Shown in pieces: positions 573-10,615 of a DNA stretch of 18,178 bases. Every line of letters starts with the position of its first letter. The first letter of the stretch is position 1. Source of the DNA: Gulosibacter massiliensis (GTDB lineage Bacteria > Actinomycetota > Actinomycetes > Actinomycetales > Microbacteriaceae); NCBI GenBank assembly GCA_945901035.1, contig CAMDKN010000003.1, forward strand, positions 1 to 18,178, written 5' to 3'. Below the pieces are notes generated by a model. It saw only the letters and a list, made by a program, of their open reading frames with translations, was not told the origin of the DNA and searched no databases. The position numbers and the translations under genes are program-made.

Positions 573-1496
573 ATGTCACGTCGTGCACTGCTGCTATTCC
601 TCGCTGTCGGAGTGGCGTGGGGAATTCCCTACTATTTCATTGCCGTAGCCAATCACTCGTTCAGTACCCCGAGCATCGTGTGGTTGCGGGTCACGATCGG
701 CGCGGCGATCCTGCTCCCCATCGTGATTTTCCGGGGAGATCTTCGTGAAACCCTCAAGAACTGGCGAGGAGTTCTGCTGTTCGCCACTCTCGAGATGGTG
801 GGACCCTGGTACCTCATCACTGAGGCCGAGAGAACGACGGCGAGTAGCTTCGCTGGGCTCAGGATGACCACAATCCCCTTCATCGCCGCGTTCATCACGG
901 GAACCTTCCTCGGTGATCGCGCGGCTCGGCACCCCGCCACCATCACCGGGTTGATTCTCGGTTTTGTGGGTGTTTTCGCCCTGGTCGGTATCGATGCGCT
1001 GAGCGGCGTACTCGAGATTGGCCCTGTGTTGATGCTGGCGTTTTCGGCGGTGTGCTACGCGATTGCACCAATCGTCGCCGGGCGAACCATGCCCACCATG
1101 TCCGGGTTGTCGCTCAGCGCGGTCTCGCTCGCAATGGTGTCCATCATCTATGCCCCATTCGCAGCGTTCACGTTGCCGGCCGACCTCGCCCGCGGGCCGA
1201 CGTTGGATGGATGGATTGCAGTTATCGTTCTCGGCGCGGTGAGTTCCGCAATTGCCTTCGTACTGTTTTTCGCGCTCATCAAGCACGTCGGTCCCCGTCG
1301 CGCGACACTCATCACGTATCTCAATCTCTTGGTCGCGTCGATACTGGGAATCGTGTTTCTGGACGAGCCGCTCACCGCGGGAATTGCAATCGGGTTACCC
1401 CTGGTGGTCGCGGGTTCCTACCTCGCCGGGCGCGACCGATCAGAGATTCAGGGCCCCGTCATCGGTTCGTTCCGTCGCCGACGAACACGACGGTAG
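573..1496 (+). CDS. DMT/EamA-family transporter
   Basis: This 307-residue integral membrane protein is of the drug/metabolite transporter (EamA) type. The chain is almost entirely hydrophobic segments and fits the family pattern of two repeated five-helix units, with the second unit starting near residue 145. The first helix holds the AVGVAWGIPYYFIA signature, and the end of the second unit has the typical sequence FLDEPLTAGIAIGLPLVVAGSYLAGR. Family members export metabolites, amino acids or small toxic compounds; the substrate cannot be read from sequence. The ATG start has only a weak ribosome binding site and lies 10 bases after the preceding gene. The last 38 bases overlap the 3' end of the convergent histidine kinase gene. 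Confidence 0.9.
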   Translation: MSRRALLLFLAVGVAWGIPYYFIAVANHSFSTPSIVWLRVTIGAAILLPIVIFRGDLRETLKNWRGVLLFATLEMVGPWYLITEAERTTASSFAGLRMTTIPFIAAFITGTFLGDRAARHPATITGLILGFVGVFALVGIDALSGVLEIGPVLMLAFSAVCYAIAPIVAGRTMPTMSGLSLSAVSLAMVSIIYAPFAAFTLPADLARGPTLDGWIAVIVLGAVSSAIAFVLFFALIKHVGPRRATLITYLNLLVASILGIVFLDEPLTAGIAIGLPLVVAGSYLAGRDRSEIQGPVIGSFRRRRTRR

Positions 1497-2856
1497 CGGT
1501 TATACCCGAGCCCGATGGGCCGGGTGCGAGAGCAACCGTTCCGCGTCCCAGCTCGGCGAGGTGCTTGACGATGGCCAATCCCAAGCCGCTTCCGTCGGTG
1601 GTGGAATCCGCCCTCCAAAACCGGTCAAAAGCCCGCTCGCGCTGCTCGGGCGTCATTCCCGGCCCGGCGTCCACCACTGTCAATTCGACGTCGCGCCCCA
1701 GCGGGCGGACGCGAACGAGGACAGCGGTTCCCACGGGGCTATGCCCAATGGCATTGTCGACGAGGTTATCCACGATCTGTTCGACCGCTCCGCTGATCGC
1801 CTGAGCGGGGGCGCTTGCGGGTCCGTCGTAGGCAATCGTGATGTTCTGTTCCTCGGCGAGTGCTCGCCAGTTGTCGACTCGATCTCGTGCGATCGTGGCG
1901 ATATCGACGGGTGTTGTTTCGGTCGAGCCCCCGTCTGATCGCGCAATGGACAGCAAGCCTTCGACAATCGTCGTGAGTCGTTCCACCTCGATTTCGGCGT
2001 CGCGCAATCGGTCCGCCGCGCGAGCGGAATCCGACTCCAGCGCTTCGCGGGCGCTTTCAATCCTGAGGAGCAACGCCGTGAGCGGGGTGCGAAGTTGGTG
2101 CGAGGCATCCGAGGCAAAGGCTCGCTGCTGTCGGATCAGGGAATCAAGCTTGGTCGCCATGGTGTTGAAGGCGACGGCGAGACTGCGGACTTCGTGGGGA
2201 CCGTCGGTTTCCGACAACGAGCCGGAAAAGTCCCCGTTCGCCAACGCGTTCGCTTGAGCCTCGACCCGCCGAATCGGGCGGATGACAACGCCCGACACGA
2301 CGAACGCAAGCAGCACCGAAAGCGCGAGGGCCGCACCCGCAACCCACCAGAGAAACAGCGTTTTCTCGGCCACGGACTGGTCGATTTCACCACTGGGGAA
2401 ACTGAGCCGGACGGCGCCGTAGATGGAGGATCCATTAATGATGGGAACCGAAACGTAGACAAGGTTGGACTGGAGAGTATCCGACCAACGCTCGCCCGAG
2501 GTGACATTCCCAAGCAACGACTGGGCAATCTCTGGGCGGTTCGTGAAATCTGTTCCGACAGCCAGCTCGACCGGGTCACTCGTCAGAACACCGATGCCAT
2601 CCCGATCGACCACGATGACCTGCGTGTTGCCCTGTTCCGCGTATCGGTTTACCAGCGCCACAAGGGTTGGGTCCATGTTTCCGGTGGTTTCGACCAGTCG
2701 CTCCACGCGAGAGCCCAGCACGAACGCGTCGCGTTCGTATTCGGTAATAATTCGTGCCTGCTCGGATTCGGCGACATAATTCAACACCACCGCCCCCTGA
2801 GCGGCGAGCAACGTCGCGCTCACTCCGACGATGGATAAGAGAAAGAGGCGTCTCAC
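1459..2856 (-). CDS. Membrane sensor histidine kinase, HAMP type
   Basis: This 465-residue sensor kinase partners the adjacent response regulator. A first membrane helix spans residues about 3-27. An extracytoplasmic sensor of roughly 140 residues follows (PAS/Cache-like, with the sequence QVIVVDRDGIGVLTSD). The second helix is at about 167-192, then a HAMP domain (192-245). The dimerisation/phosphoacceptor motif is SHQLRTPL with His253. The ATPase domain has the N-box DNLVDNA (363-369), DAGPG (396-400) and GSGLGL (422-427). I place the start at the GTG that overlaps the regulator's stop codon as GTGA, because AGGAG precedes it by a good distance; a longer reading is possible but has no such signal. 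Its divergent neighbours are the poly-acidic/ApbE/reductase genes, which I infer it controls. The stimulus is unknown. Confidence 0.92.
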   Translation of the reverse strand: MRRLFLLSIVGVSATLLAAQGAVVLNYVAESEQARIITEYERDAFVLGSRVERLVETTGNMDPTLVALVNRYAEQGNTQVIVVDRDGIGVLTSDPVELAVGTDFTNRPEIAQSLLGNVTSGERWSDTLQSNLVYVSVPIINGSSIYGAVRLSFPSGEIDQSVAEKTLFLWWVAGAALALSVLLAFVVSGVVIRPIRRVEAQANALANGDFSGSLSETDGPHEVRSLAVAFNTMATKLDSLIRQQRAFASDASHQLRTPLTALLLRIESAREALESDSARAADRLRDAEIEVERLTTIVEGLLSIARSDGGSTETTPVDIATIARDRVDNWRALAEEQNITIAYDGPASAPAQAISGAVEQIVDNLVDNAIGHSPVGTAVLVRVRPLGRDVELTVVDAGPGMTPEQRERAFDRFWRADSTTDGSGLGLAIVKHLAELGRGTVALAPGPSGSGITATVVFVGDGTNR

Positions 2857-3521
2857 GACACGCTCCTCACGGTGAATCCAACCCCTCGCACCGATTCGAC
2901 CCACTTCGGGTCACCGAGTTTCTTGCGGATGCTGGCGACGTGGGCGTCGAGAGTTTTGGTGGTGCCGTACCAGGTGGTCTCCCAGACGTCTCGGAGAATG
3001 TCGGCTCGTCGAAAGGCCGTCCCCGGCTCACGAGCGAGGTAGGCCAACAGGTCAAACTCTTTGGGTGTTAGAGCAACCGATTTTTCGTTCACCGAAACCG
3101 TTCGAGTCTTGGTGTCAATGACGAGGGAGCCGACCTCGATGTGTGTGATGGGTGCGACGGAGCCCGTTGCTCGTCTCATCACCGCGTGGATGCGTGCGAC
3201 AAGTTCTTTGATACCAAATGGTTTGACCACGTAGTCGTCGGCGCCCATGTCAAGAACCGTCACGCGGTCCAGCTCTGTTTCACGGGCACTCACAACGATG
3301 ATGGGCACGTGCGAAAAACTTCGGATTAGCCGACAGACCTCAGTGCCATCCATATCGGGTAAACCGAGATCCAAGATCACTGTTGTCACTCCGCCGGCAC
3401 GGACCTTCGCAATTGCTTCGCTTGCGAGAACCACGTGTTTGACGTCGTAATCATTCGCGCGGAGACCTTCGATTACCGCGTCGGCGATCGCGCGATCGTC
3501 TTCGACAAGCAGAACTGTCAT
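2853..3521 (-). CDS. OmpR/PhoB-family response regulator
   Basis: This 222-residue DNA-binding regulator begins MTVLLVEDD. The receiver domain covers residues 1-118: acidic pair Asp8/Asp9, phosphoacceptor Asp51 in LDLGLPDMDG, Ser78 and Lys100 in VVKPF. A C-terminal winged helix (about 128-220) contains LTPKEFDLLAYLAREPG and the ending VRGVGFTV, both typical of OmpR/PhoB members. I chose the ATG directly before TVLLVEDD because the receiver fold begins there; the open frame continues about 47 codons upstream, but that extension is not receiver-like and crosses the parS-like site. The kinase gene follows with a four-base overlap, so the two are translationally coupled. The gene is divergent from the poly-acidic operon, an arrangement often seen with autoregulated two-component systems and their targets. 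Confidence 0.94.
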   Translation of the reverse strand: MTVLLVEDDRAIADAVIEGLRANDYDVKHVVLASEAIAKVRAGGVTTVILDLGLPDMDGTEVCRLIRSFSHVPIIVVSARETELDRVTVLDMGADDYVVKPFGIKELVARIHAVMRRATGSVAPITHIEVGSLVIDTKTRTVSVNEKSVALTPKEFDLLAYLAREPGTAFRRADILRDVWETTWYGTTKTLDAHVASIRKKLGDPKWVESVRGVGFTVRSVS

Positions 3522-3643: not shown

Positions 3644-4177
3644 ATGAACATACAAGGACCACTTCTCCTGCTCGGCATCACCGCGACCACCACGGTTGGC
3701 CTGGGCACCGTCGCCGTCAACACCGGCGCTGTAAATATCGATGATGTCTCGGGGCTGCTCGCCCAGACCGTCCCGGCAGTTTCGGGCACAACGGCCGGTC
3801 AGGGCGTTGCCCTGGCACTGCCCGACTCTCCCTCGGTGACCTCCGAAAGCGCCGGGTCACTCCCCGCGGACGCTGCCGTGGAACCATCTGTCGACGGATC
3901 GGCCACGGAAACGCACGGCGGATCCGGCGGCTCAACCTGGAGTGAAGGTGACTCGTCCAACAACGATTCGACCAACGCGTCGGGCGGCACAAACTCGGGC
4001 AACAATCACGGAAACAGTTCGGGATCGTCGGGCGGTTCTGGTGAGTACGAGGACGAAGATGAAGATGAAGATGAAGATGAAGACGAAGATGAAGATGAAG
4101 ATGAAGATGAAGATGAAGATGAAGACGAAGATGAAGACGAAGACGAGGACGAAGACGAAGACGAGGACGAAGACTAA
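3644..4177 (+). CDS. Export-type protein with (Glu-Asp)21 polyanionic tail
   Basis: This is a 177-residue protein of unknown function. Residues about 5-30 are hydrophobic and could be a signal or membrane anchor, although no positive charge precedes them. A Ser/Gly/Asn/Thr-rich, disordered-looking region follows (about 60-133). The C-terminus, residues 136-177, is 21 uninterrupted Glu-Asp dipeptides. From this ATG the protein has no Lys or Arg at all. DGSAT (84-88) faintly resembles ApbE flavinylation motifs. I prefer this ATG (GAGG close upstream, followed directly by the hydrophobic stretch) over an in-frame TTG at 3557 that overlaps the parS-like site. Its stop shares a base with the next start (TAATG), so the lysine-rich protein is probably made by coupled translation. 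Acidic tails of this kind can bind cations; that role is only inferred here. Confidence 0.75.
   Translation: MNIQGPLLLLGITATTTVGLGTVAVNTGAVNIDDVSGLLAQTVPAVSGTTAGQGVALALPDSPSVTSESAGSLPADAAVEPSVDGSATETHGGSGGSTWSEGDSSNNDSTNASGGTNSGNNHGNSSGSSGGSGEYEDEDEDEDEDEDEDEDEDEDEDEDEDEDEDEDEDEDEDEDED
4049..4174 (+). repeat. In-frame hexanucleotide tract GARGAY x21
   Basis: There are 21 tandem copies of a six-base unit (GAR GAY) encoding alternating Glu and Asp, with third-base differences (gat/gac, gaa/gag) between units. GAAGAT dominates the first two thirds and GAC/GAG variants dominate the end. Because the unit is six bases, slippage or recombination would change the tail length without breaking the reading frame. 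The long reading frame on the opposite strand here is only the shadow of this repeat. Confidence 0.95.
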
Positions 4178-4479
4178 TGGCACTGTTCGTTGCAACTAAA
4201 TCGCGGGTACTCGTTACGCTCGCAACCGCTGGCGCTATGGTGGCCGGAGTAGCGGGACTTCAGGCCCAGGCGGTGGAACAGGCTGTTCAAGCGGACGCCG
4301 AGAGCGCTGCACTGGCAGCCAGTACCGTGCCCGTCGCCGCACCAACACCGACCGCTACCGTGGTCAAAAAGAAAAAGAAGAAAAAGAAAAAGAGCTCGGC
4401 CGCGGTTGTAGCCCAGCCAGCTCCTGCACCAGCGGCGAAGCCGGCAAAGAACCACGGTTCTTCCAGTGGCTCAAAGTAA
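4177..4479 (+). CDS. Secreted-type lysine-rich protein with Lys9 tract
   Basis: This is a 100-residue protein of unknown function. It begins with a convincing signal peptide: a basic start (Lys8, Arg10), a hydrophobic core (VLVTLATAGAMVAGVAGL) and a likely cleavage site near LQAQA (28-32). The mature part is Ala/Pro-rich with nine consecutive lysines at 64-72, then a Pro/Ala/Lys stretch and a Gly/Ser/Lys end. It has no acidic residue after Glu42, so its mature C-terminal half is purely cationic, the opposite of the protein encoded just upstream. The ATG overlaps the upstream stop by one base (TAATG), and the gene overlaps the ApbE start by 14 bases. I infer an electrostatic partner of the Glu-Asp tail or of anionic wall polymers. 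The lysine tract has long A runs where ribosomes or polymerase could slip. Confidence 0.72.
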   Translation: MALFVATKSRVLVTLATAGAMVAGVAGLQAQAVEQAVQADAESAALAASTVPVAAPTPTATVVKKKKKKKKKSSAAVVAQPAPAPAAKPAKNHGSSSGSK

Positions 4480-5434
4480 TCTTCCGCACAGTTCAATCGC
4501 GTCGTACGCCATCCGCGCAGCACAGGGCGACGGAGGAGCGCCGACTGTTTCACGCCAGTTTTCGGTCATGGGTACCACCACGAATCTGGTCGTTGTCGGG
4601 GGAACCGCCGAAATGCTCGACGATCTTGAACGCACCGCTTTTCACCTTCAATCGCTGTGGAGCCGTTTCCTCGAGGACTCGGACATCACACGGCTGAACA
4701 ACGCCGAGGGCGCACCGGTCACGGTAAATCCGCTCACAGCACAACTGGTGGGGGAAATGCTGGCTGCACGGACACTTACCGAGGGCGAGTACGATCCCAC
4801 GATTTTGCCCAAGCTGATTGCCGAAGGCTACGCGACATCGCGCGTCAACCCAGCACACGTGACGTCGCTGCCCGCCAGTGCACGGTGGCCGATCGACCCC
4901 ACCGGCACGACGATCGAGGGTAACGTCGTGACCCTCCCACTCGGTGTGACACTCGACTCGGGCGGAATCGGCAAGGGAATCGCTGCAGACATCATGGTGT
5001 CAATGGCCATCGAGCGCGGCGCCTTTGGTGCGCTGGTGGAGATGGGCGGGGATGTTCGAATCGGCGGAACACCGCCCGACGGCACTCACTGGCGGATCGG
5101 TATCGAAGACCCGTTTGTCGAAGAACGCTCCATCGCCCGCGTCAATCTGTTGGACGGAGCGGTTGCCACCTCGAGCACACTCAAGCGAGTGTGGGAAAAC
5201 GAGGGACGGTCGGTCAATCACCTCATCGACGTCCACACCGGTGAAGCGATGACGACCAATGTCGTCACGGTCTCGGTTATTGCGGTGTCGGCCGGGATCG
5301 CTGAAGTGATCACGAAAGCGGGATTCACGCGGGGTGACTTCCTGCGCTGGGTCCCCAAACTCGGGGCGGCGGCCTTCGTGGTCTATCGTGATGGAACAAC
5401 GGCTCAATCAGCCAATTGGAAGGATTATTCGTGA
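4466..5434 (+). CDS. apbE: ApbE-type FAD:protein FMN transferase
   Basis: ApbE enzymes attach FMN from FAD to a Thr or Ser of target redox proteins through a phosphoester bond. This 322-residue protein has the family landmarks in order: FSVMGT (33-37), DSGGIGKG (164-171), the GGD flavin/metal motif (194-196) and HLIDVHTG (252-259) followed by a Thr/Val-rich strand. I see no signal peptide or lipobox, unlike many ApbE proteins, so its location is uncertain. The GTG start lies inside the end of the lysine-rich gene and has no obvious ribosome binding site, so it probably depends on coupled translation; conserved sequence from about residue 31 requires a start upstream of 4556. Its stop overlaps the reductase start as GTGA. 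No FMN_bind-domain target is visible in the window; the reductase or the acidic protein are the candidates. Confidence 0.9.
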   Translation: MAQSNLPHSSIASYAIRAAQGDGGAPTVSRQFSVMGTTTNLVVVGGTAEMLDDLERTAFHLQSLWSRFLEDSDITRLNNAEGAPVTVNPLTAQLVGEMLAARTLTEGEYDPTILPKLIAEGYATSRVNPAHVTSLPASARWPIDPTGTTIEGNVVTLPLGVTLDSGGIGKGIAADIMVSMAIERGAFGALVEMGGDVRIGGTPPDGTHWRIGIEDPFVEERSIARVNLLDGAVATSSTLKRVWENEGRSVNHLIDVHTGEAMTTNVVTVSVIAVSAGIAEVITKAGFTRGDFLRWVPKLGAAAFVVYRDGTTAQSANWKDYS

Positions 5435-7005
5435 ATGACCCGCACATCTGGTGGTACGTCTCGCGCGTGAGCGCGCTCACCGCCTGGGGGCTCATGTCGT
5501 TCTCGGTGGTGTGGGGCGTCCTTTTGTCCAGCCGAGTTTTTCAGGGGCTCGACAATCCCGCGTGGCTTAAAGACCTTCACAAATACCTGAGCACACTGAC
5601 CGTGGTTCTTGCCAGCGTCCACACGACGTCACTGATGCTCGATCCGTACGTAAAGTTCGACGCCGCTGACCTGTTCATTCCCGGGGTGGCGACATACGAA
5701 GGAGCCACAGAACTCATCAACATCGCCTTGGCCGTGGGTGTGGTCGCGATGTGGGTGATGTCGATCGTGTACGTGACCTCGTTGGTCATGGACAAGATTC
5801 CGCGCGCGCTGTGGAAAGCAATTCACTACCTGTCCTACGCCGTATTCTTTGCGGTCGGAATTCACGCGGCGTTCGCCGGGTCGGACGTGGGCAGTTGGTG
5901 GTATGCCGCGGTGTCGATTTTCGTCATTTCCATGACCCTGATTGCTCTTTTCATCCGCTTCGCGGTGATTTTCCTTCGAGAACGTCGAGCGGTAGCTGAC
6001 GCCAAAATAGCCGCGTACCGGGCAGAATTACAGGCCGAACGCGCCGCGATGGTGCTGGAGAACCCCGACGAGGACAGTCGGGAAAAGCGAACGATGGTGG
6101 TGCAGAAAGTGACTGTACTTGCTAAGGACATCGTGGGTATTCGACTCATTCCCGTTGGCGGGGGGAACGTTGCCTGGTGGGACGCGGGGTCCCACCTGAC
6201 GCTTCATCTCGCGAATGGAATGGAACGTCAGTATTCCTTATGCGGCGACAGTACGGATCGAACGGGTTACGAAATCGCCGTGCTCGATACGCACGGCCCC
6301 GAGGGGGGTTCGACCTGGATTCACCGCAATGTTGTCGCGGGAACAGTCATTCCCGTCAGTGGTCCACGAAACCACTTCCCCATGGTTCCCGCACGGACCT
6401 ACCTGTTCATCGCGGGCGGAATCGGAATCACCCCGATTCGGGCAATGATCGAGGCACTCCCTGCGCAACGCGACTGGCACCTGCTGTACCTGGGCAAAAA
6501 CCGCGCCGCGATGGCACTCGCCGACGAGGTGGCACAGTCCTATGGCAAGCGTGTCACGATACACGAGTCCGACGTTTCCGGCCGATTTGACCTTTCTCCG
6601 CTCCTCGAATCCACCCACGCCGATGTCTACTGTTGCGGACCCGAGTCACTGATGTCCGAGGTCGAACAGCGAATCGAACGATCGCGGGCCCACCTCGAAC
6701 GCTTCAACCCGGTTGTGCGTGAACTCGACGGCGGGGCAAAGCCACTCGTTGTTCGACTGGCGTCCACGGGCAAAAAAGTTGCCGTCGCGGCCGACGTGAC
6801 GATTGCATCGGCACTCAATGCGGCGGGCGTCCCGATTCAGACGTCGTGTGGAAAGGGCGTCTGTGGAACATGCGAACTGCGAGTGGTTGAGGGAACGCCA
6901 GCTCACTTGGACAGCGTCATGCCCGATTCGGACAAAGACAAACTGGGGGTCTTCTACCCGTGTGTGTCAAGAATTGTGGGAAGCGAAATTACGGTCGACG
7001 CTTAG
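5431..7005 (+). CDS. Ferric reductase-like membrane / FNR / [2Fe-2S] ferredoxin fusion
   Basis: This 524-residue electron-transfer protein fuses three modules. The N-terminal membrane module (about 10-185, six predicted helices) is ferric-reductase-like, with histidines 50, 64, 132 and 145 spaced as two heme-binding pairs across the bilayer. An FNR-type module (about 222-415) follows, with RQYSL (266-270) for flavin, GGIGITP (329-335) for NAD(P)H and CCGPESLM (401-408). The C-terminal plant-type ferredoxin carries Cys473, Cys478, Cys481 and Cys511. I infer electron flow between cytoplasmic NAD(P)H and the cell exterior through flavin, [2Fe-2S] and heme. The GTG start overlaps the ApbE stop by four bases and has GGAAGGA about six bases upstream, so I reject an upstream TTG. 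The acceptor (ferric iron, oxygen or a flavinylated protein) is unknown. The end overlaps the convergent gene by four bases. Confidence 0.92.
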   Translation: MNDPHIWWYVSRVSALTAWGLMSFSVVWGVLLSSRVFQGLDNPAWLKDLHKYLSTLTVVLASVHTTSLMLDPYVKFDAADLFIPGVATYEGATELINIALAVGVVAMWVMSIVYVTSLVMDKIPRALWKAIHYLSYAVFFAVGIHAAFAGSDVGSWWYAAVSIFVISMTLIALFIRFAVIFLRERRAVADAKIAAYRAELQAERAAMVLENPDEDSREKRTMVVQKVTVLAKDIVGIRLIPVGGGNVAWWDAGSHLTLHLANGMERQYSLCGDSTDRTGYEIAVLDTHGPEGGSTWIHRNVVAGTVIPVSGPRNHFPMVPARTYLFIAGGIGITPIRAMIEALPAQRDWHLLYLGKNRAAMALADEVAQSYGKRVTIHESDVSGRFDLSPLLESTHADVYCCGPESLMSEVEQRIERSRAHLERFNPVVRELDGGAKPLVVRLASTGKKVAVAADVTIASALNAAGVPIQTSCGKGVCGTCELRVVEGTPAHLDSVMPDSDKDKLGVFYPCVSRIVGSEITVDA

Positions 7006-8589: not shown

Positions 8590-8835
8590 CTATCGCCAGC
8601 GAGTCGTCATGAGGAAGCCGACAAACATCAGGCCGAAGCCAATCACGATGTTCACCGCTCCGAGGGTTGCGATGGGGAACAATCCTGCACTGACGTAATA
8701 GGTCAAAATCCAGACGAGTCCGACGAGCATGAAGCCGAACATGATGGGCTTGAACCACACGGGATTCGGCGCCGCAGTGGTGTTCCGCGCGGGGGTCGAA
8801 TCCGGGTTCTGGTCGTCTGAGGTCGTCTTTGCCAT
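8590..8835 (-). CDS. crgA: Cell-division protein CrgA
   Basis: CrgA is a small actinobacterial membrane protein that interacts with FtsZ and peptidoglycan synthases and helps control septation. This 81-residue copy has a charged N-terminus (1-23), the family core NPVWFKPIMFGFMLVGLVWILTYY, a second helix beginning near LGAVNIVIGFGLMFVGF and the conserved C-terminus TTRWR. Its place between ppiA/rhomboid and trpG is the classic actinobacterial order. The ATG has no ribosome binding site, but a good promoter (TTGAGC, 17 bases, TATGCT) ends six bases before it, pointing to leaderless expression. Confidence 0.95.
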   Translation of the reverse strand: MAKTTSDDQNPDSTPARNTTAAPNPVWFKPIMFGFMLVGLVWILTYYVSAGLFPIATLGAVNIVIGFGLMFVGFLMTTRWR

Positions 8836-8841
8836 TGTGCC

Positions 8842-8870
8842 AGCATACCGACACCCCCCTGCTTGCTCAA
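8842..8870 (-). promoter_or_regulatory. Promoter of crgA
   Basis: On the minus strand TTGAGC (8865-8870), a 17-base spacer and TATGCT (8842-8847) form a reasonable sigma-70-type promoter. Transcription would start at or next to the crgA ATG, giving a leaderless message. The divergent sortase -10 lies only eight bases away. Confidence 0.6.
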
Positions 8871-8878
8871 ACCGAGGA

Positions 8879-8884
8879 TAGAAT
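8879..8884 (+). promoter_or_regulatory. -10 element of the sortase operon
   Basis: TAGAAT is followed by exactly seven bases and then the GTG at 8892, the spacing expected if transcription begins at the start codon. I see no good -35. This element decides the GTG start over the longer open frame from 8829, which would overlap crgA and its promoter. Confidence 0.5.
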
Positions 8885-8891
8885 TGGACCC

Positions 8892-9842
8892 GTGCCCCCT
8901 CGATCCGACAAACCTAGCTTTGGTGCGCCACGCCCCGGTGGACGGAAACCGAGCGATGCAAATCCCGAGCAGATTCGCGGTCGAACCTACGCGCTCCGCG
9001 AAATACCGCTTGAGAAGCGCATCGGCGAATTTGTCCCTCAGGAAACACGACGGCAAATTGTCGATTTCCGGGGCATCGGGATTCTTGTCACGCGACGGGA
9101 ATTTGTCGATCGTGCGATTGGAATATCGGGCGAAACCCTCGTAACAGTGGGGCTGTTTGTGCTGTTGTTTCTCGGCTGGCACGTGTGGTTCAACGACATT
9201 GTGCAGGGTGCCGCTCAAGACAGAGCAGCGTCAGTGCTGTCCAACACCTGGAGCAGTATGCCGACCGGTGCCACCGAGTTTGATCGTGCGGCCGGGACTT
9301 CGGACGGGGCAATCACAGACGTCCCACCGCCTGTGGTCAAATCACCGGGAGATGCCGAATCGTTCGCTACGGTCCTCGTTCCCCGGTTCGGCGTGCGCTA
9401 CGAACGAACGGTTGCCGAGGGTGTCGACGTGGAAACCGTCTTGAACAACCAGGTGACGGGCATCGGACACTATCCCAACACGGCTCAATTGGGTCAAATC
9501 GGGAACTTCGCTGTGGCGGGCCACCGAACCACCTACGGAGCGCCGTTTGGGGAAGTCGACAAACTTCGACTCGGTGATCGGATCTATGTGGAAACCGAAG
9601 CGGGTTGGTACGTCTACCGATTCCGCAACATGGAATACGTTTACCCGACCCAAGTGTCGGTTCTCAATCCCGTACCTCAATTACAAATTGAGGCTCGAGA
9701 TAGAATCCTCACCATGACTACGTGCCATCCGAAACTTTCCGCCGCGGAGCGTCTCGTCGCCTACGCGGTGTTTGAATCGTTTGTCCCTCGCGCCAATGGC
9801 ACTCCGACGGAGATAGCCAAGACTGCGTTGGTGAACGGATGA
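8892..9842 (+). CDS. Class E sortase, long N-terminal cytoplasmic extension
   Basis: Sortases join surface proteins to the cell wall through a Cys-His-Arg active site. In this 316-residue protein these are His211 (AGHRTTYG), Cys278 (TMTTCHP) and Arg287 (AAERLVAY); the TTCHP motif and general layout are those of class E enzymes from high-GC Gram-positives. One membrane helix lies at about 80-100, preceded by an unusual, mostly polar cytoplasmic extension of about 75 residues. A linker of about 60 residues separates the helix from the catalytic domain. The gene is followed by a second sortase with an ATGA overlap, and the two catalytic domains are clearly paralogous. No LPXTG/LAXTG substrate is encoded in the window, so targets lie elsewhere. 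Confidence 0.93.
   Translation: MPPRSDKPSFGAPRPGGRKPSDANPEQIRGRTYALREIPLEKRIGEFVPQETRRQIVDFRGIGILVTRREFVDRAIGISGETLVTVGLFVLLFLGWHVWFNDIVQGAAQDRAASVLSNTWSSMPTGATEFDRAAGTSDGAITDVPPPVVKSPGDAESFATVLVPRFGVRYERTVAEGVDVETVLNNQVTGIGHYPNTAQLGQIGNFAVAGHRTTYGAPFGEVDKLRLGDRIYVETEAGWYVYRFRNMEYVYPTQVSVLNPVPQLQIEARDRILTMTTCHPKLSAAERLVAYAVFESFVPRANGTPTEIAKTALVNG
9618..9654 (+). repeat. 37-base identical block shared by tandem sortases, copy 1
   Basis: This block is identical to 10394-10430 and covers the same codons in both sortases (YRFRNMEYVYPTQ region). The flanking bases differ at many synonymous sites, so the identity stands out against the average divergence of the pair. Confidence 0.9.
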
Positions 9843-10615
9843 CGTGGCAGTGGCTGAACATCGCAGTCCAACGTGTATCGTCCCGAAAAACTCGGGAGGT
9901 AATTAGTGATCTCTTTATCACTCTCGGCGTTCTTGTGCTGTTTTTTTATGTCTGGTATGTCTGGCTCGGAGACATCGTGACGGGCGCCAAACAAGACGCC
10001 GCGGGAGTGTCCCTCTCCCAGTCCTGGGCGGAAGTGACGGAGGGAGTCCCCGAATACGATCGCGAAAGTGGCAGTTCCCAGGGTGGGGAACGATCACCGA
10101 AGCCCCCCGTCCTGGCTTCACCGAGGGAGGGCGTCGCCTTCGCGACCATCATGGTTCCTCGGTTCGGGTCAAACTATGTGCGAACGATCGCGGAATCGGT
10201 CGATGTGAAAAAGGTTCTCAACGACCCATCCACGGGAATCGGACACTATTCGTCCACCGCACCACTCGGCGCTGTGGGTAACTTTGCTCTCGCAGGGCAC
10301 CGCACCACGTTTGGCGCACCGTTCGGTAACGTCGACCAATTGCGAGTAGGGGACCGAATCTATGTGGAAACGAAAAAAGGCTGGTATGTCTATCGATTCC
10401 GCAACATGGAATACGTTTACCCGACCCAAGCTGATGTTCTAAGCAACGTTCCCCGCGAAACAATTGTGGCGCAGGATCGAATTCTCACCATGACCACGTG
10501 TCATCCGAAAACGTCTGCTGCGGAACGACTGATCGCCTATTCGGTGTTCGAATCGTTTGTTCCCCGAAAAAACGGCGCCCCGGCTGAAGTCGGAGAGATT
10601 CGCGCGGAGTCCTAG
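9839..10615 (+). CDS. Class E sortase, short N-terminus
   Basis: This 258-residue second sortase has active-site residues His154, Cys221 and Arg230 in the same motifs as the first (AGHRTTFG, TMTTCHP, AAERLIAY). Its membrane helix is at about 26-45, so it lacks most of the long N-terminal extension of its neighbour. The start ATG overlaps the upstream stop (ATGA), so both are made from one message. Similarity to the upstream sortase is high throughout the catalytic domain and includes a 37-base stretch identical at the DNA level (9618-9654 against 10394-10430), suggesting duplication with later sequence exchange. The short N-terminus resembles the usual class E form. Confidence 0.93.
   Translation: MTWQWLNIAVQRVSSRKTREVISDLFITLGVLVLFFYVWYVWLGDIVTGAKQDAAGVSLSQSWAEVTEGVPEYDRESGSSQGGERSPKPPVLASPREGVAFATIMVPRFGSNYVRTIAESVDVKKVLNDPSTGIGHYSSTAPLGAVGNFALAGHRTTFGAPFGNVDQLRVGDRIYVETKKGWYVYRFRNMEYVYPTQADVLSNVPRETIVAQDRILTMTTCHPKTSAAERLIAYSVFESFVPRKNGAPAEVGEIRAES
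10394..10430 (+). repeat. 37-base identical block shared by tandem sortases, copy 2
   Basis: This is the second copy of the exact 37-base block found at 9618-9654, in direct orientation 776 bases apart. Recombination between the copies would fuse the two sortase genes in frame. Confidence 0.9.

Follow-up and report, generated by a model that had tools for sequence, protein, structure and literature searches.

Candidate ApbE substrates on membrane-tethered tails encoded beside a membrane reductase in Gulosibacter massiliensis and other actinobacteria

In a stretch of Gulosibacter massiliensis DNA of 18,178 nucleotides (assembly GCA_945901035.1, contig CAMDKN010000003.1; hereafter the window), two small proteins, P1 and P2, are encoded directly before ApbE, a flavin mononucleotide (FMN) transferase, and a membrane NAD(P)H reductase. 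Judged from their sequences, P1 and P2 are quite probably disordered membrane-tethered arms which carry covalent flavin and take electrons from the reductase to an acceptor outside. They are presented here as candidates for a new kind of ApbE substrate. A preliminary description of the window had centred on the opposite charges of the two proteins. The conserved element that it overlooked is a flavinylation-like motif found in both.

A conserved four-gene module

The genes for P1, P2, ApbE, and the reductase each overlap the next, and P2 starts on the same TAATG that closes P1. A response regulator and a histidine kinase are encoded on the opposite strand. The preliminary description had read this arrangement as a redox operon with a divergent two-component system and had proposed looking for the same gene order in relatives; both points were borne out. 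The order, with P1-P2-ApbE-reductase running away from the response regulator, was kept in 42/42 analysed loci, from Microbacteriaceae to Mycolicibacterium. In all of them ApbE lies on the reductase strand, the response regulator lies on the opposite strand, and P1 and P2 sit between the two (with P2 partly masked in L148 and L150). A kinase match was present in 40 of the 42 fetched stretches.

The reductase served to retrieve the loci from genomes of the genus itself, from further genera of Microbacteriaceae, and from named contigs of less closely related actinobacteria (sources include Salinibacterium, Nanopelagicales, and Mycolicibacterium vanbaalenii). The 42 analysed loci are the fetched stretches which span the response regulator to the reductase. 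Loci at contig ends or truncated were excluded (L034, L040, L043, L046, L138, L158, L165, L166), as were L159, L160, and L167, which are the same places as L132, L133, and L150. L183, with 33% identity and no ApbE match, was excluded as a reductase relative that lacks the module. The set also leaves out G212, where the match is at a contig start, and partial matches in G204 and G326. Among 80 named loci, the module was looked for in L158-L171 and L183; the remaining 65, which match the cytosolic half of the reductase only, served as a source of control open reading frames (ORFs).

Both P1 and P2 have a hydrophobic N-terminus, with 15-residue Kyte-Doolittle maxima of 1.70 and 2.09, respectively, in the first 45 residues. 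As the preliminary description had proposed, they are probably export-type proteins, judged by hydropathy, with the charge pattern read by eye. The membrane segments are recognizably related between the genus and the other lineages (hhalign: 98.5% over 30 columns for P1 and 94.9% over 33 for P2). The chain that follows the membrane segment is approximately 60-250 residues long in P1 and P2 orthologues. The Pfam search of P1 returned no family above cut-off; three matches below the cut-offs (PPP4R2, CDC27, DDHD) were dropped, with the acidic composition offered as their cause. P2 matched no Pfam family at E up to 1. The 27 P1 homologues are labelled "hypothetical protein" or are nameless, and have no Pfam match. 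P2 relatives are likewise nameless or "hypothetical", and one is called HAMP domain-containing. A truncated P2 relative (P0026) is filed under Klebsiella pneumoniae, where its presence is most probably due to contamination of the record.

The flavinylation-like motif

Passages of PMC12052999 state that ApbE puts FMN on the last residue of D-x-x-[S/T]-G-A-[S/T], that seven residues are enough for the enzyme, that an Asp to Ala change has a minor effect, that Ser is accepted less well than Thr, and that flavin tags work best at protein termini. The tails described here resemble this motif in having Ser/Thr at positions 4 and 7, mostly Gly/Ser at position 5, and Gly/Ala at position 6, but their position 1 is variable. 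P2 ends in NHGSSSGSK in the window and elsewhere in NGTTGGSG, DGTTAGSGG, DATTAGSGG, DAHTGGS, or VHATTGGS, with little other sequence in common.

A relaxed form of the motif, [ST][GSAQ][GA][ST], falls within the last 10 residues of 35/40 P2 orthologues; the denominator is 40 and not 42 because P2 went unscored in L148 and L150, where bases are masked. The count expected from shuffling is 1.65 if the exported part is shuffled, 2.14 for the last 20 residues, and 4.86 for the last 12. Counted by lineage (assigned by hand), the motif is present in 13/17 against an expected 0.61 (last 20) or 1.74 (last 12). Among close P2 homologues it is found in 51/52, the lone miss being a truncated record; two of them end in DGTSAGSK and one in DGTSGGSK. 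Codons at the P2 motif vary synonymously across the 11 genus loci. As a background, 11 of 1116 ORFs of at least 250 residues in the 80 named loci (unverified as genes) carry a C-terminal motif.

In P1 motifs of this kind recur. The pattern [DN]..[ST]G[AG][ST] occurs in 18/42 orthologues (expected 1.8) and the shorter [ST]G[AG][ST] in 32/42 (expected 9.1). In 16 of the 18 P1 proteins with the longer pattern, its last copy lies no more than 25 residues from the acidic tail. P1 of L142 contains DASTGAS, which fits the published motif exactly, and P1 of L162 contains NVTTGAT.

The acidic tail of P1

The composition given for P1 in the preliminary description is exact: the protein contains no Lys or Arg and its C-terminus is (ED)21, a run of 42 residues. 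The regularity of this run is a product of repeat expansion, since the ED alternation is encoded by an array of GAAGAT hexamers (4055-4173, 19.8 copies, 92% match). In homologues the acidity is built from other repeats, for example EEEEH or DDDD. Because acidic tails recur with other repeats in 42/42 loci, a repeat-assembly artefact was rejected as well. The suggestion that charge would be kept rather than sequence held for P1: its last 30 residues are net negative in 42/42 orthologues (-5 to -30), as is its exported part (-9 to -60). Over the last 30 residues 26/27 close homologues range from -11 to -30, the exception being P0074 at -1. The tail, often of the Asp/His type, may bind iron or other cations next to the motif.

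By reading, P1-like genes stand in tandem in some loci, with three copies in L140 and L143 and two in L142. This suggests several arms per reductase.

ApbE and the reductase

The identification of ApbE is convincing. The window protein matches PF02424 (E 1.4e-45, 156.3 bits against a cut-off of 25.6) and FMN transferases in the PDB, such as 6nxi, and residues D164, G166, K170, S236, and H252 are invariant in 15/15 aligned sequences. A further ApbE alignment (A2) offered no stretch of sufficient conservation for scanning contigs. Its N-terminus is not signal-like: the 15-residue Kyte-Doolittle maximum in the first 45 residues is 0.97, and 0.90-1.54 in four relatives. By reading, the N-terminal extension before the catalytic domain (4466-4570 in the window, and in relatives) contains a recurring ISRDALRAVF-like stretch, a possible membrane or substrate contact.

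In the reductase, four membrane His (H49, H63, H131, H144) and the 2Fe-2S Cys 472/477/480/510 are kept in 10/10 aligned sequences (residue numbers count from the Asn that follows the GTG start). The Pfam matches of the window reductase at E up to 1 did not include PF01794. Comparison with SpNOX and phthalate dioxygenase reductase covers the reductase alone, and the predicted structure is of moderate quality (mean predicted local distance difference test 71.7, predicted template modelling score 0.49). The reductase was considered as a target of ApbE and rejected: no motif column is common to the 10 aligned sequences and four of them have no motif at all. Acceptor candidates were sought among nine ORFs near the reductase in L159, L160, L163, and L169, which include a restriction-modification pair, a nitrilase-type hydrolase, Caa3_CtaG/CopD, and a CoA-transferase, and no common partner emerged.

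Other substrates of ApbE and a class-wide survey

No match to FMN_bind (PF04205) was found in the host genome, which is approximately 1.2 Mb and 80% complete, and none in the operon. FMN_bind was absent from 11/15 genus genomes, several of which are incomplete. G001 and G007 (94% complete) each encode one ApbE and lack FMN_bind, DUF2271, and NqrB/RnfD, and the same is true of G247 (90% complete). In G006, G010, G012, and G014 an FMN_bind gene lies near a second ApbE match, away from the P1/P2 locus.

A survey of the class gathered 38 loci with ApbE and a related transmembrane protein, of which 37 are distinct (L265 repeats L093). A small upstream protein with the C-terminal motif was present in 27/37, divided into 7/9 in the first set and 20/28 in the second. 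L239, L243, L245, L250, and L257 gave no candidate and were scored as misses. L090 and L240 had two candidates each, and the motif-bearing one was counted. The automatic rule missed the tails of L255 and L256, which were then chosen by eye; of these two, L255 alone was counted as a match. Of the 32 candidate tails, 30 end in Gly-Ser, 30 have Ser/Thr at the fourth-last position, and 31 have Gly at the second-last; the commonest last seven residues are H-A-T-S-G-G-S. Ten ApbE loci without a transmembrane match yielded six upstream candidates, none of which has the motif (0/6), with the caveat that this set is not a clean control because L101 ends in TSTAS, near the motif.

Proposed mechanism

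In the proposed mechanism P1 and P2 would be substrates of the adjoining ApbE, which would attach FMN covalently to short Ser/Thr motifs of unfolded, tethered chains. The predicted FMN site of P2 is at its C-terminal tip, and in P1 one or several motifs before the acidic tail would be used. The C-terminal motif would leave the cytosol last, which suits a cytosolic ApbE acting before export, with the C-termini then placed outside. The reductase would move electrons from NAD(P)H through flavin and a 2Fe-2S centre to two b hemes and across the membrane. There the tethered flavins would pick them up and, as flexible swinging arms, pass them on to an acceptor within the cell wall or further out; at their observed lengths, the chains could sweep much of a Gram-positive wall. 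Close to the flavin, the acidic tail of P1 may bind ferric iron or a different cation. The linker of P2, Lys-rich in the genus and, by reading, Pro-Ala in many other P2 proteins where the genus has lysines, would be a spacer. Regulation of the operon by the divergent two-component system is probable.

With less confidence, the balance tips towards a broader reading, in which redox carriers without a folded cofactor domain are widespread in actinomycetes. These would be disordered tethered tails with a natural flavin tag at their end. A co-encoded ApbE would attach the flavin in the cytosol, either ahead of export or in its course, and the tails would swing between a NOX-like reductase in the membrane and acceptors in the wall. 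Pairs of P1 and P2, with acidic tails that may bind metal, would be an elaborated form in Microbacteriaceae and some relatives.

Several observations weigh against the flavin-carrier proposal. The strict motif D..[ST]GA[ST] is absent from P1 and P2 of the window and is not enriched among orthologues (1/42 in P1, where 0.7 is expected, and 0/40 in P2). In the usual case position 1 is N, H, or another residue, position 6 is Gly, and the end is Ser. Even the relaxed motif is missing from 5/40 P2 proteins (L149, L162, L164, L168, L169), and L164, L168, and L169 lack it in both proteins. Gly-Ser-rich tails are of low complexity, and the shuffle expectations overstate independence because the orthologues are related. 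FMN_bind occurs elsewhere in 4/15 genus genomes and somewhere in 15/23 other genomes with the locus, so the argument that ApbE has no other substrate rests on the genomes without FMN_bind. That argument covers FMN_bind, DUF2271, and NqrB/RnfD, but not the known substrate types DUF3570, Flavodoxin_4, or FMN_red. In the class-wide set 10/37 loci lack the motif, and the picks by eye, the near-match in L101, and the unsearched substrate families slightly weaken the argument drawn from it. ApbE is typically an exported lipoprotein. Without a signal-like N-terminus the ApbE of this module implies that flavinylation would have to precede export, unlike in the usual case. Cytosolic ApbEs do exist, according to passages of PMC12052999.

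Alternative explanations

The preliminary description correctly noted that P2 has nine lysines in a row and no acidic residue after residue 42, and proposed that the acidic P1 and the basic P2 form an electrostatic complex, a cation- or iron-binding surface layer, or a scaffold near the reductase. Taken without covalent flavin, this explanation is improbable. The acidity of the P1 tail in every locus agrees with it, as do the lysines of close P2 homologues, whose longest run is 3-9 residues and at least 5 in 50/52. The exported part of P2, however, is net positive in just 15/40 orthologues: 10/11 from the genus and 5/29 from elsewhere (L149, L151, L162, L163, L164). In the remaining 24 of the 29 it is zero (4) or negative (20), though the rest of the locus is kept and P1 is acidic throughout. 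A Lys/Arg run of at least four is similarly found in 8/11 genus loci vs 2/29 others. Oppositely charged partners as the conserved functional core were therefore rejected; because the P2 charge is not kept elsewhere, the polyanion-polycation pair is a trait of the genus and a few others and not of the system. The electrostatic explanation also leaves the C-terminal motif and ApbE unaccounted for.

It is unlikely, though less so, that the Gly-Ser tail is a tag for docking or processing, recognized by the reductase, the wall, or a protease, and that ApbE modifies something else. The departure of the motif from the strict consensus, its absence from some orthologues, and the FMN_bind proteins elsewhere in some genomes would fit such a tag. 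They are countered by the spacing within the tails, which keep the seven-residue register of the ApbE motif (Ser/Thr at positions 4 and 7) and in some cases have Asp at position 1, and by G001, G007, and G247, where a single ApbE has none of the three other substrate types searched for. That P1 and P2 serve the divergent histidine kinase as ligands or accessory sensors, and are not redox carriers, is very improbable: the response regulator and kinase accompany the module in the numbers given above, but among the first nine outgroup loci with ApbE, a transmembrane protein, and a tailed protein, five have no response regulator or kinase match in the fetched stretch (one of these stretches ends at a contig end). 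Least credible is low-complexity drift, by which P1 and P2 would be repeat-rich ORFs without a selected function. The hexamer array in P1 and the fast divergence of the linkers are what drift would produce, but gene order, membrane segments, acidic tail, and motif have persisted across long divergence, and codons at the motif change synonymously.

Known systems and significance

The flavin-carrier proposal has several partial parallels, here compared with passages of the cited papers. MsrQ-like flavinylation clusters are broadly conserved in Actinobacteria (Meheust et al. 2021, PMC8238504) and, as here, place ApbE beside a multi-transmembrane protein, bis-heme in those clusters and putatively so in the present module, often with an NAD-binding domain. 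These clusters typically include a gene for an FMN-binding domain, whereas in the present module the candidate substrates are motifs on tethered tails without a Pfam domain. Multi-flavinylated proteins (PMC8238504, PMC11334425) also have several flavin sites per exported protein and a proposed role in carrying electrons over long distances, but their sites are in several folded FMN_bind domains and those of P1 would be bare motifs in a low-complexity chain. In Lactococcus FMN_red (PMC11334425), flavinylation motifs on an unstructured C-terminal extension were demonstrated by co-expression; there the extension is part of a folded flavoprotein whose own flavin site it reaches, and P1 and P2 have no such domain. 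The engineered flavin-tag (PMC12052999) demonstrates that a seven-residue terminal peptide suffices for ApbE. That tag is artificial, and P2 looks like its natural counterpart. Among the best-ranked titles and abstract openings of a mostly open literature without preprints, no disordered flavin-tag tails were found, which is weak evidence of absence.

In the relevant passages of the eLife 2021 survey (PMC8238504), 17% of genomes have apbE but no FMN-binding protein; two new substrate domains cut that share to 4% (670), and less prevalent substrates remained unidentified. For one group of apbE genes in actinobacteria, a short C-terminal motif on disordered tails is a candidate substrate. If the proposal is true, covalent flavin can serve as a carrier without a protein pocket, and Gram-positive bacteria have a path by which electrons enter the wall. 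Both predicted proteins, whose relatives in the database searched are nameless or "hypothetical", are small and simple to test.

Features of the window and minor observations

Table 1. Positions of the module, its motifs, and the divergent two-component genes in the window
Feature	Position	Strand	Remarks
P1	3644..4177	+	177 residues; hydrophobic segment at about residues 5-28, Ser/Gly/Asn-rich linker, acidic C-terminal tail
P1 motif SGGS (7-mer HGGSGGS)	3923..3934	+	
P1 motif SGGT (7-mer TNASGGT)	3980..3991	+	
P1 motif SSGS (7-mer HGNSSGS)	4016..4027	+	7-mer of the type at the P2 C-terminus
P1 motif SGGS (7-mer SGSSGGS)	4028..4039	+	directly before the acidic tail
Acidic tail of P1, EY(ED)21	4043..4174	+	begins at residue 134
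P2	4177..4479	+	100 residues; signal/anchor-like N-terminus, linker, Lys9, C-terminal flavinylation-like motif
Lys9 stretch of P2	4366..4392	+	residues 64-72; mainly a genus feature
P2 C-terminal motif HGSSSGS	4453..4473	+	followed by K and stop
ApbE, flavin adenine dinucleotide:protein FMN transferase	4466..5434	+	GTG start overlaps the P2 end
Membrane NAD(P)H reductase	5431..7005	+	GTG start; Fer2 and NAD-binding domains, flavin/NAD domain, transmembrane region
Response regulator	2853..3521	-	Pfam; divergent from the operon
Sensor histidine kinase	1459..2904	-	ORF and Pfam; exact start uncertain

Some loci depart from the general pattern. The P2 proteins of L162 and L164, from actinobacterial metagenome-assembled genomes, are Lys-rich with a Cys near the C-terminus (L162 ends in NHHKKKKC) and lack the motif. 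In L046 (G011:C8), at about 1575-2123, C-terminal remnants of the kinase and of the reductase adjoin each other. This looks like a single deletion of the response regulator, P1, P2, ApbE, and most of the reductase, although an assembly error is possible. Outside the module, the window encodes two overlapping tandem sortases on the forward strand (8829-9842 and 9839-10615; Pfam Sortase, E 4.9e-30 and 8.2e-28) in this genome of approximately 1.2 Mb.
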